This document shows, in pieces, positions 21,760 to 29,302 of a DNA stretch of 34,509 nt. Both the position numbers and the translations under genes were made by a program. Position 1 is the stretch's first letter; every line of letters starts with the position of its first letter. The DNA is from a virus: IMG/VR virus record IMGVR_UViG_3300032073_000102, positions 1-34,509 of that record. One strand, 5' to 3'. A model generated the notes under the pieces. It was given only the letters and a program-made list of their open reading frames with translations. It did not search any database and had not been told where the DNA came from.

Positions 21760-21781
21760 AAATTTACTCTTGGGTAAATTT
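21760..21781 (-). promoter_or_regulatory. Constant-loop hairpin D
   Basis: - strand: 8-bp stem AAATTTAC / GTAAATTT, loop CCAAGA. Relative to copies A-C a G-C pair is replaced by A-T on both arms, a compensatory change. It lies 60 bases before the ssDNA-binding protein start and overlaps the stop codon of the gene before. Confidence 0.65.
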
Positions 21782-22872: not shown

Positions 22873-22894
22873 AAATTTGCTCTTGGGCAAATTT
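22873..22894 (-). promoter_or_regulatory. Constant-loop hairpin C
   Basis: - strand: 8-bp stem AAATTTGC / GCAAATTT, loop CCAAGA, followed by TAAAATACATTAATTT. It lies 39 bases upstream of the start at 22834. Confidence 0.65.
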
Positions 22895-23466: not shown

Positions 23467-23488
23467 TAATTTGCTCTTGGGCAAATTA
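23467..23488 (-). promoter_or_regulatory. Constant-loop hairpin B
   Basis: - strand: 8-bp stem TAATTTGC / GCAAATTA, loop CCAAGA, then TTATATACAATTAATTT. It lies 42 bases upstream of the start at 23425. Confidence 0.65.
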
Positions 23489-23676: not shown

Positions 23677-23698
23677 CAGTTTGCTCTTGGGCAAACTG
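23677..23698 (-). promoter_or_regulatory. Constant-loop hairpin A
   Basis: - strand: 8-bp stem CAGTTTGC / GCAAACTG, loop CCAAGA, then TTATATACATTTAAATC. It lies 45 bases upstream of the micro-protein start at 23632. Confidence 0.65.
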
Positions 23699-25813: not shown

Positions 25814-26008
25814 ATGTATTTTGTACTAGCATTGCTATGCACAGACCTAGACAGGAATTGTAGTCTGAGAGTATATCCAGACATACAATCAAGCTATGAA
25901 GCATGCTTTGAAACCAAGCAAGAGGTTAATAAAAAGCTATGGGAATTTAAACCAGAGAATGCGTCGTCACTTAAGACGTGGTGCTTTATGATACCAGAGG
26001 ACACTTAA
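25814..26008 (+). CDS. Small Cys-containing hypothetical protein (64 aa)
   Basis: AAGGAG lies nine bases before the ATG. The N-terminus is hydrophobic (MYFVLALLC) but short for a signal peptide. Four Cys (9, 16, 31, 57) could pair if it is exported with its neighbours. It ends one base before the next gene. No family is recognised. Confidence 0.68.
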   Translation: MYFVLALLCTDLDRNCSLRVYPDIQSSYEACFETKQEVNKKLWEFKPENASSLKTWCFMIPEDT

Positions 26009-26009
26009 T

Positions 26010-26609
26010 ATGAAATATTTAAAACTTAAAACAGTTATGCTAACATTACTTCTTTATTTGTTTGCAGCAAGTATAGGCCTTGCAGAAGGTTGTGACAGCA
26101 CAACAAATGCAAACTGTATTGAGACAAATAGTAATACTAACTCTAATGTTAACTCTAATATGACATCAGAGACTACAGTTAAGTCACCACCACCATCAGC
26201 TATGTCGCCAACTATTAATAACTCTAATTCAGATTTATGTACAGTAGGTGTGGCAGGCGCAGTGCAAACACAGATATTAGGAATTAGTGCAGGCGCTACA
26301 GTTAGAGATATGAACTGTGAGCGACTAAAGAATGCTAAGGTATTATATGATATGGGGATGAAGGTGGCTGCGGTTTCAGTGATGTGTCAAGACAAACGAA
26401 TTTTCGCGAGCATGATGAACGCAGGGACTCCCTGTCCGTTCGATGGTCTCGTCGGTGGTCCAGCTAAAGAAGCATGGAATAATAATCCACATTTAATACC
26501 TGGAGCTAAAACAGGAAAGAATAAGGAGTGGTCAGATGAAGATAAGAATACTGCCAAAGGTGCTGCTGGCGTCGGTGGTTTGCTTGCTCTCCTCCTACTG
26601 CTTATCTGA
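26010..26609 (+). CDS. Exported conserved phage protein with C-terminal membrane tail (199 aa)
   Basis: A signal peptide (LKLKTVMLTLLLYLFAASIG, likely cut after GLA) precedes an Asn/Ser/Thr-rich linker (residues 30-75). A conserved-looking domain with several Cys follows (DMNCERLKNAKVLYDMGM, MCQDKRIF, GTPCPFDGLVG). A final hydrophobic helix GGLLALLLLLI closes it. I recall the Cys domain from marine phage genomes, where it is unassigned. It probably sits in the inner membrane facing the periplasm. It shares 74 bases with the next gene. Confidence 0.8.
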   Translation: MKYLKLKTVMLTLLLYLFAASIGLAEGCDSTTNANCIETNSNTNSNVNSNMTSETTVKSPPPSAMSPTINNSNSDLCTVGVAGAVQTQILGISAGATVRDMNCERLKNAKVLYDMGMKVAAVSVMCQDKRIFASMMNAGTPCPFDGLVGGPAKEAWNNNPHLIPGAKTGKNKEWSDEDKNTAKGAAGVGGLLALLLLLI

Positions 26610-27429
26610 TGTTATATATGAAAGAACAGATAATGTAACTACGAATGGTTACAACTGGGATATGACAAGGGTTTTACCGCCAGAAGCAGGATTAAAAGTT
26701 CAAGGAATATACCACAAGTATACAATAACTAAGGATTCTAATACGGATGCTACCGTATCTATAGTTAATAAGAATACTAATGGTGTAGGTAATATCTACG
26801 AAAGACATGATAACTGGGATCAGATACCTAGCAATACAAAGTTAGGGTTTGATACTATTACACCTACATTAGGTACATCATTTGGAGACGGAAGTATATC
26901 TGTGCATGGCGATGGAGAACTAAGTAACGTTATTATTGCTTATAACTATATGTACGATACTTGTGCAATACCTTTAACAGACTCTTCTTGTCCAGGCTAT
27001 GAAGATGCTCTTATGAAATATCTTCTTGATAACGGTTTAATAGATAGTGAACCAGATATTAACGATCCTTATTATGACGACTGGGTACAATTCCAGTTAG
27101 ATCAGAAAGCAGAAGCTGCAGAGGAAGAAGAGTTAGAAGAAGAACAAGCTAAAGAAGAAGAAGAGGAACAAGAATTAAAAATAGAGAAAGCGCTTGCAGT
27201 AGCAGGTGCGGCTGAACAGATTGCTAATCCAACAAGACAGTTGTTAATGATGGCTCAAATGATGTCAGCAGGAACCCTAGATGGATACTATGGAGCAACA
27301 ATAAACGGTGGAACTTATGAAGACACTGTTGAGTTAGAAGATGGTATCATTATAGATAATTTTAAAGCGTTGAGAAACCTTGCCCAAGATAAGGTTCATA
27401 GAACAATGGTTCGATCTCAATATGAATAA
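26536..27429 (+). CDS. Exported beta-rich protein with Glu-rich segment (297 aa)
   Basis: AAGGAG precedes the ATG. A signal peptide (about 24 residues, PKVLLASVVCLLSSYCLS) is followed by a beta-rich domain (NVTTNGYNWDMTRVLPP, GDGSISVHGDG). A highly acidic stretch near 195-216 (EEEELEEEQAKEEEEEQE) and a helical C-terminus close it. I recall the NGYNWDMT type of protein in marine phages, unassigned. The long overlap with the gene before suggests coupled expression. A periplasmic role is expected. Confidence 0.8.
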   Translation: MKIRILPKVLLASVVCLLSSYCLSDVIYERTDNVTTNGYNWDMTRVLPPEAGLKVQGIYHKYTITKDSNTDATVSIVNKNTNGVGNIYERHDNWDQIPSNTKLGFDTITPTLGTSFGDGSISVHGDGELSNVIIAYNYMYDTCAIPLTDSSCPGYEDALMKYLLDNGLIDSEPDINDPYYDDWVQFQLDQKAEAAEEEELEEEQAKEEEEEQELKIEKALAVAGAAEQIANPTRQLLMMAQMMSAGTLDGYYGATINGGTYEDTVELEDGIIIDNFKALRNLAQDKVHRTMVRSQYE

Positions 27430-27440
27430 ATGGAGATAAC

Positions 27441-27941
27441 ATGGATATTAAAACAATAACAGCGTTAGCGTTCTTAATGCCAGCGACTGCTGCAATGGCA
27501 GTTGACTCACCTATAAGTGGTGTAGTAGAACCTAAATGCTCTATATGGACAGAAACAGCAGGTGTATATGGACATCCACTTCCGTACAAACTAACTACTA
27601 AGCCGGCTGATGGCGGAGTCAAAGCTAGCATTCGCGTGGATATTGCGCAAGCTGACTATTATAAAACAAAGTTTACACATCCTAATAGTTTTTCATCTAG
27701 CCCTACACTGACAGATGCAGTCTCATGGACAGGAAGCACAGTAGTAGGAGCAGTAGGTGTATCTGGGATGTCAGCTTATGAAGCTGCAAAAGTAACTTAC
27801 AATAATGTCACAGAGTTTAATATGACATTAGCAGGATCTACATGGTTTACTGTAGAGTCAGAAGCAAGCTATGGATCTACTAAGTCATTACCTGCGGGTA
27901 ACTATACTGCGTTGATTGTAGCAGAATGTATAGCAAAGTAA
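27441..27941 (+). CDS. Exported beta-rich protein (166 aa)
   Basis: GGAG precedes the ATG. The signal peptide MDIKTITALAFLMPATAAMA is cut before VDSPISG. The mature part has two Cys (near 33 and 163) placed to form one disulphide, and alternating strands (YKLTTKPADGGVKASIRVD), like a small immunoglobulin or pilin-type domain. It ends 16 bases inside the next gene. Function unknown; the fold is guessed from pattern. Confidence 0.78.
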   Translation: MDIKTITALAFLMPATAAMAVDSPISGVVEPKCSIWTETAGVYGHPLPYKLTTKPADGGVKASIRVDIAQADYYKTKFTHPNSFSSSPTLTDAVSWTGSTVVGAVGVSGMSAYEAAKVTYNNVTEFNMTLAGSTWFTVESEASYGSTKSLPAGNYTALIVAECIAK

Positions 27942-28327
27942 TATTAGCTTTATGTTTTGTTTTTTGTACCACGGCTCACGCACACGAAATGACACCGGCA
28001 TATCCGCAGTTGAAATCTTCTTATATAGAAGGTGTATCATCTGCTAAAATGAAACTATTTAATAGGAGAAACGATGTTTCCTATTATCTAATAGAGGTAT
28101 TTACATCAGATTTTAAACCTATTCCGTTTGCTTCATCATCTATATCTACAGTTTCATCTAAGATTATAATGGTAGGATATAATAAATCAAAGATATTTGA
28201 TGTGTATATTAGATCTAGCGATATAGATCGAGCTGTATATATTTGTACACAGTCAAAACTTTTAAAGCAAACTGATCAAATTTCTTTAATAACGTCGAGG
28301 GTTTGTTCAAAAATAAAGGACAAGTAA
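27926..28327 (+). CDS. Exported pilus-chaperone-like protein (133 aa)
   Basis: A signal peptide ends AHA before HEMTPAYP. The mature domain (KMKLFNRRNDVSYYLIEVFT, FDVYIRSSDIDRAVYIC) has the strand pattern of a beta-sandwich resembling the first domain of pilus-assembly chaperones. Two Cys in the second half (VYIC, SRVC) may pair. It overlaps the previous gene by 16 bases without a clear ribosome site, so coupling is likely. Low-certainty fold guess. Confidence 0.75.
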   Translation: MYSKVILALCFVFCTTAHAHEMTPAYPQLKSSYIEGVSSAKMKLFNRRNDVSYYLIEVFTSDFKPIPFASSSISTVSSKIIMVGYNKSKIFDVYIRSSDIDRAVYICTQSKLLKQTDQISLITSRVCSKIKDK

Positions 28328-28738
28328 ATGAGGATATACTTACTACTTTTACTAGTCACTGTTATTTGTAGTTGTAGTTATAGTAGAACTTATGCAGACT
28401 CAATGTCTAACTCTTTGAGCTTAGCACTACCTAACTCGACTACAAGTTTCCAAGCAGATAAGTTTAGAGCTGGTGAATTAGATTGTAGTAATGCAATAGG
28501 CTCAGCAACAAACATTGAGTTTGGAGTGACTGGAATTATTCAAGGAGGTACTTCAAGTCGCCAACAAGTAGGAGATATTGGAGTGTACTCTAAGATAACG
28601 ATACCGCTTGGAAAGCGGGCAAAGAATCGTATTGACTGTAATCGTCTGTACGAGCTTGAGTTACAGAAGAAGCAGTTAGAAGTTATGAAGTTACAACAAG
28701 AGATAAATCAATTAAGACAATTGTCTTTTGAAAACTAG
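28328..28738 (+). CDS. Exported protein with C-terminal coiled coil (136 aa)
   Basis: AAAGGA lies before the ATG, which follows the previous stop directly. A hydrophobic leader (RIYLLLLLVTVICSCSYS) is compatible with a signal peptide or lipoprotein. The middle is Gly/Ser-rich beta (FGVTGIIQGGTSS). The C-terminus is a coiled coil (ELQKKQLEVMKLQQEINQ). Two Cys flank the domain. It could anchor or oligomerise with the next protein, which also has coiled coil. Confidence 0.75.
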   Translation: MRIYLLLLLVTVICSCSYSRTYADSMSNSLSLALPNSTTSFQADKFRAGELDCSNAIGSATNIEFGVTGIIQGGTSSRQQVGDIGVYSKITIPLGKRAKNRIDCNRLYELELQKKQLEVMKLQQEINQLRQLSFEN

Positions 28739-28747
28739 GAGGGCACA

Positions 28748-29302
28748 ATGGCAGAAGTAGAAATCGCTGGCGCTAAGATTAAAGGCGGCAAGATAATGCT
28801 TATACTACCGTTACTAGGTACGCTAGGCGGCGGACTATGGGGTGGCTTCGAGTTTTATAAAGACTATATGGATATGAAGGAAATTATACAGAATATAGAT
28901 ATAGACTCTATACAGTCCGAGAATACTCTTGTTCAAACTAAGTTAGATAAAGCTATCGACTATACGCGTGATATTAAAGATGATCTACGAGAAGACATCT
29001 TAAAACTAGAGGGCTATATCGATAAGATGGATTCTAAAGTTGAGAAGTCTGTAGATAGCGTTAGAGAAACTAAGCTATTAATAGATGCCACGTTAGAAAG
29101 TATGCTAACTGCAATGAATGAATTACAAAAAGATACCACCGCATCTCTCAGAGAAGTTGAATCTTTAAATAGAGAGACTGAGAAGGATGTGAGGAATACA
29201 ATGAGAGAAACCGAAGAAAGGATTGATTCTAATATGAGGAAGTTAGAAGATAAGCTAACTGAAAGGTTACAACAAGCTTTGGATAACCCGCTCTCAGATT
29301 AA
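28748..29302 (+). CDS. Membrane-anchored coiled-coil protein (184 aa)
   Basis: AGGAGG precedes the ATG. One transmembrane helix near residues 15-37 (MLILPLLGTLGGGLWGG) is followed by about 130 residues of charged heptad-type helix (KLDKAIDYTRDIKDDLR, TEKDVRNTMRETEERID). It has no cleaved signal, so it is anchored in the inner membrane. It closes the exported cassette before the portal gene. Spanin-like or tether functions can be imagined but nothing specific is seen. Confidence 0.78.
   Translation: MAEVEIAGAKIKGGKIMLILPLLGTLGGGLWGGFEFYKDYMDMKEIIQNIDIDSIQSENTLVQTKLDKAIDYTRDIKDDLREDILKLEGYIDKMDSKVEKSVDSVRETKLLIDATLESMLTAMNELQKDTTASLREVESLNRETEKDVRNTMRETEERIDSNMRKLEDKLTERLQQALDNPLSD

Follow-up and report, generated by a model that had tools for sequence, protein, structure and literature searches.

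Why would a phage carry a run of genes for exported and membrane proteins amid those for DNA packaging and the head? The question is raised by a 34,509-base virus record (the window, taken at its full length), whose phage encodes a T7-type RNA polymerase and is closest, among phage records, to Roseobacter phage CRP-7, at 68% identity over parts of terminase and portal. Between these two genes the window holds seven open reading frames (ORFs) in the same direction, all on the + strand: D, A, B, o4, o5, o6 and C. The block A-B-o4-o5-o6-C occupies 26010-29302 and is tightly packed, with overlaps between A and B (74 nt) and between o4 and o5, and the gene for the small cysteine protein D precedes it. 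The flanks are identified by terminase matches (Terminase_6C, E 2e-6; PHROG terminase, E 1.5e-27) and an SU10-type portal match (E 5e-127), which bears out the consecutive-gene cassette that an initial sequence-only reading had placed between them. Its site amid packaging and head genes holds for the window but not as a rule, since the terminase-portal placement belongs to the phage group that includes the window, and many relatives carry the block in the tail-fibre/lysis region. A literature search found neither a published description of the block nor virion proteomics.

An inverted repeat (TTTGCTCTTGGGCAAA) recurs 5' of the terminase at 21763-21778, 22876-22891, 23470-23485 and 23680-23695, in three exact copies and one with two mismatches, where about 0.2 chance matches are expected at three mismatches. 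The repeats look like operators or terminators, and no exact copy was found in 223 fetched loci.

Export, topology and predicted folds

Export-type signals were scored by a simple hydropathy test against a background made up of the remaining ORFs of 100 aa or more from these loci. N-terminal signals of this type occur in 74-96% of family members for A, B, o5 and o6, compared with 13.5% of background ORFs. The o4 family lies just below the threshold, with 50% of members passing, and its N-terminus is signal-like (MDIKTITALAFLMPATAAMA). A, B, o4, o5 and o6 are predicted on this basis to enter the periplasm, with C held in the inner membrane and its coiled coil outside. Alignments reveal conserved cysteine pairs in A (C77/103/126/142), B (C143/C152), o4 (C33/C163), o5 (C107/C127) and o6 (C53/C104), and none of the window's six proteins is an outer-membrane lipoprotein. 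The signal peptides or membrane anchors, the paired cysteines and the coiled coils noticed at the outset all withstood analysis of the families. D (25814..26008) encodes 64 aa with a hydrophobic N-terminus and four cysteines, and its export signal is doubtful by hydropathy.

A (26010..26609) combines a signal peptide, an Asn/Ser/Thr-rich linker, a single domain containing four invariant cysteines and a hydrophobic C-terminal tail, which is present in 92% of members; a lipobox is found in 3%. B (26536..27429) has a signal peptide, a beta-rich N-domain, one Cys-PL-Cys-PGY repeat, an acidic linker and, after it, a constant C-terminus (MVxxQY). The short form of B (70 proteins) has a single C-x-NPL-x-C-PGY repeat and the long form three to seven copies, arranged in tandem in L080, L081, L084, L089, L091 and L200; the NPL of these repeats recalls the C-terminal tip of C. 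The N-domain of B differs in kind between phage groups, and among six-gene phages it is no more variable than the C-terminus. We considered B as a hypervariable host-recognition protein and rejected this, since the B proteins of the set show no hypervariability. Its match to the PHROG 200 'lipoprotein' was also set aside because it covers the acidic linker only and looks like chance or composition. The exported o6 (28328..28738) ends in a helical, charged C-terminus. C (28748..29302) has one predicted transmembrane segment (TM) at ~16-34 followed by a long hydrophilic helix, with a hydrophobic period of 3.6 over residues 45-180 that marks a coiled coil. A terminal NP[L/M] tip lies within the last 14 residues of 152 of the 154 C members, compared with 5 of 775 background ORFs.

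For the exported o5 (27926..28327), AlphaFold2 gives a single PapD-like domain of 133 aa (pLDDT 89.7). Its best PDB structural matches are pilus chaperones, by Foldseek and by VIA (Z 10.7 to SafB), with a near-equal match to an unrelated Ig-like domain of a chitosanase (Z 10.2). We regard o5 as confidently predicted to be a single PapD-like pilus-chaperone domain, equivalent to the chaperone N-domain, in agreement with the fold first proposed from sequence. The F and G strands of the model carry its conserved cysteines, an arrangement that we take to recall the FGL class of chaperones. The exported o4 (27441..27941) is predicted as a beta-sandwich (pLDDT 91) whose resemblance to pilins is weak. 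Its top Foldseek matches include several pilus subunits (FimF, E 8e-4, TM 0.39-0.44), but structural scores are near background, the best VIA Z of 7.9 is to other Ig-like adhesins and pilins are not among the best VIA rows, an absence that is compatible with a pilin. No match to o4 was found in BFVD at E <= 0.001, and a 'GNAT-phage-like' assignment was rejected as looking like chance or composition.

Conservation of the block and signs of its exchange

No trusted sequence match to o4, o5, o6 or B was found in Pfam, the PDB or phage records; for the six-gene form, these four lack a match in 50,697 phage records. Loci were instead gathered from three scans of viral contigs and by profile searches, and counts of the unit use only loci with enough flank, which avoids counting what was searched for. 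Across the viral-contig loci the gene order A-B-o4-o5-o6-C is fixed. In marine viral contigs all six genes occur in order in 49 of 53 loci found through A, and in all 40 found through o6; B and C are present in 53/53 of the former, the four exceptions lacking o4, o5 and o6 and carrying a long B alongside A and C. More than 80 relatives of o6 were found in viral contigs. The portals of 25 cassette records are SU10-type over the cut-off in six and match the T7-type head-tail connector over the cut-off in three, the rest giving neither. Phages whose portals are unrelated share the block as a single unit in conserved order. Purifying selection acts on each of the six genes (dN/dS 0.00-0.36), and the ORFs are accordingly real.

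Relatives of A are found in 11 phage records, and the A-B-C form occurs in contigs binned with bacterial genomes and in cultured pelagiphages and roseophages, where the proteins are labelled 'hypothetical', 'OmpA family' (A) or 'transport protein tonB'. B is called a 'putative carbohydrate binding domain' in some phages, and that of uvMED S28-C10 lies in an A-B-C block. Genes of metaviromic islands with this label have been read as host recognition (PMC3909814); the accessible part of that article does not mention B as part of an exported multi-gene unit. Two roseophage proteins, CRP207_gp73 (L010:3292-3873) and CRP810_gp51 (L012:6210-6632), are called lysozyme or putative lysozyme. Both align as C-family TM and coiled-coil proteins ending in NPL, and by this alignment the 'lysozyme' label is wrong.

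Comparisons of window-type relatives give different pictures for the block and for the portal: o4 is 98% identical and the portal 75% in one pair, and o4 89% and the portal 94% in another. In the pair formed by the window and L105, synonymous divergence in B and o4 is lower than in the portal, and we read both results as signs of exchange. In CRP-7 the interval from terminase to portal holds just two small genes. Neither this interval nor the rest of its genome matches the block families, apart from one chance-level D match that is not tied to a particular genome; one lineage therefore has the block and the other does not. D is part of the block in window-type phages only: its profile finds 18 loci, all of this type, and D has no similarity to HTVC115P gp51. 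Small cysteine proteins, not necessarily homologous to D, also adjoin the block in other phages. We rejected the idea of a recently acquired moron with its own signals, as the GC content of the block equals that of its flanks and promoter-like sites are not above shuffles. Terminator-like sites in the block are only slightly above shuffles (8 vs 4.7, sd 2.8), and the stem-loops that follow C fall short of significance (z -1.1).

Lysis-gene neighbourhood and possible functions

In relatives, the genes 3' of the block encode EF-hand-like two-TM proteins, three-TM holin-like proteins and endolysins, the last from two unrelated families (GH108 and GH19), and those 5' of it are often tail-fibre-like, as identified by eye. 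Of 80 loci, 21 have an endolysin within 4 kb downstream, compared with 2 of 71 upstream, and 30 of 80 have holin-like three-TM genes near the block. Among whole records with a recognised endolysin, it lies within 3 kb of o4 in 5/7 (null mean 1.2), at a P of 0.0016 that overstates the case because the seven records represent perhaps three independent contexts. In the other two the distance is at least 10 kb, as it is in HTVC202P and Baldr. A search of 25 records with Phage_lysozyme gave nothing, and one with Amidase_2 gave a single match that did not reach the cut-off; the amidase-like match in G013 was left out of the endolysin count for being below it. In the phage group to which the window belongs, the surroundings of the block yielded no recognisable lysis gene, the window record being a fragment. 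The EF-hand-like protein 3' of the cassette (~110 aa with two predicted TM, at L169:1087-1419 and in ~60 loci) is possibly holin-like.

The block resembles two-component Rz/Rz1 spanins (PMC6139136) in the N-terminal TM and long coiled coil of C, a likeness of hydropathy and helical periodicity only, in the overlapping genes within it and in its proximity to endolysin genes in relatives. It differs from them in its make-up, as spanins are two proteins of which the o-spanin is a small lipoprotein with a lipobox, whereas the window's block has six proteins and no lipoprotein partner. The unimolecular type (T1 gp11) pairs an N-terminal lipobox with a C-terminal TM, and A has the tail widely and the lipobox rarely. 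Pairs of Rz/Rz1 type, recognised by i-/o-spanin-like layout and lipoboxes, lie close to the block in seven loci (L062, L071, L075, L081, L083, L093 and L222), and in L093 and L083 full lysozyme-Rz-Rz1 or Rz-Rz1-endolysin clusters directly adjoin it. Simple replacement of spanins by the block is weakened accordingly. Under a strict filter no lipobox was found in or near the window's block or in the HTVC202P and Baldr genomes, and the candidates in S28-C10 are only on the strand opposite its genes; canonical spanins, present in some cassette phages, may thus be missing from others. Directly 5' of A in CRP-207, CRP-810 and ct7L lie small lipoproteins that combine a lipobox with an A-like cysteine pattern (L010:1725-1940, L012:4606-4866 and L013:886-1101), the CRP-207 copy not being annotated.

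Our results support a co-inherited module of exported envelope proteins with a link to the late region, and the co-inheritance of exported proteins with an inner-membrane coiled coil in constant order fits the envelope-spanning assembly first suggested. We infer its function from here on. Of the roles proposed in the sequence-only reading, lysis has the most positional support, from the nearby endolysin, holin-like and spanin genes, with superinfection exclusion and receptor masking still in contention. The frequent position of the block between tail-fibre and holin/endolysin genes elsewhere favours an envelope assembly acting at lysis. We tentatively prefer, at somewhat less than an even chance, a horizontally exchanged late-region module encoding an inner-membrane-anchored, periplasm-crossing complex that acts on the host envelope late in infection, most likely as a lysis accessory. 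The strongest point against such a role is the coexistence of the block with Rz/Rz1-type systems, given which the module would help with membrane disruption or set its timing, and would not stand in for Rz/Rz1.

Exclusion or masking, in which late exported proteins would cover or modify the surface of the host and so prevent adsorption or injection by sibling or rival phages, or by released progeny that encounter debris, is possible but on the unlikely side. Coexistence with full spanin systems leaves room for such a non-lysis role, and it is favoured by the tail-fibre genes beside the block in many relatives, the small A-like lipoproteins adjoining it in roseophages and the group-specific, in some phages 'carbohydrate binding', N-domain of B. 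That domain is however no more variable than the C-terminus in six-gene phages, dN/dS is low, and no tail-fibre gene adjoins the block in the window. Known superinfection-exclusion proteins are usually single small proteins; those of the Cor and Llp type are defined by a block to adsorption or DNA entry when expressed. We place a lysis-stage role above exclusion because the neighbours recur and B is not hypervariable.

A surface or periplasmic fibre of o4-like subunits, with o5 as chaperone, for host adhesion or aggregation would account for a PapD-like protein beside an exported beta-sandwich with pilus subunits among its best Foldseek matches, as in chaperone-usher pili (SafB, FaeE, PapD, Caf1M, FimC). 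Those chaperones have two domains and o5 one predicted, sequence similarity is absent, and o4 is weakly pilin-like. No usher match over the cut-off was found in the window and 22 other records, all possibly fragments, and the host may supply one; the A-B-C form, moreover, lacks o4 and o5, and a fibre seems improbable. The same 23 records have no match to CsgG, and the block differs in this from the phage-encoded curli pore CsgGF (PMC9004378, PMC9599517), which it resembles as a transferred multi-gene envelope module in marine phages; that pore has been proposed to act in lysis timing (PMC9004378). Least probable of all are head or tail accessory components of the virion with hydrophobic N-termini that merely resemble export signals. 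The block does lie amid head genes in the window and near tail genes elsewhere, but the export-type N-termini are kept through whole families, which makes virion membership very unlikely, and the conserved cysteine pairs are as expected in the periplasm.

In the lysis-stage module, o5 would stabilise a partner beta-sandwich such as o4. C, via its constant NPL tip, and B, via its constant C-terminus, would form a bridge that A, o4 and o6 complete, and we infer that the complex might then disrupt the outer membrane or time its disruption. A bolder and more doubtful proposal is that of a new trans-envelope machine, in which the C coiled coil would carry a B/A bridge, the six-gene form would add the usher-less o5/o4 pair and o6, and late assembly would open or guard the outer membrane, the unit being exchanged among marine phages.

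Six 'hypothetical' genes common to many marine viral contigs thereby become one testable unit, and 'lysozyme' labels are corrected on two roseophage coiled-coil proteins. The predicted structure of o5 would place a pilus-chaperone fold in use by phages. If the block acts in lysis, it would join holin, endolysin and spanin as a further component; should it exclude other phages, it would be an unusually complex exclusion system.
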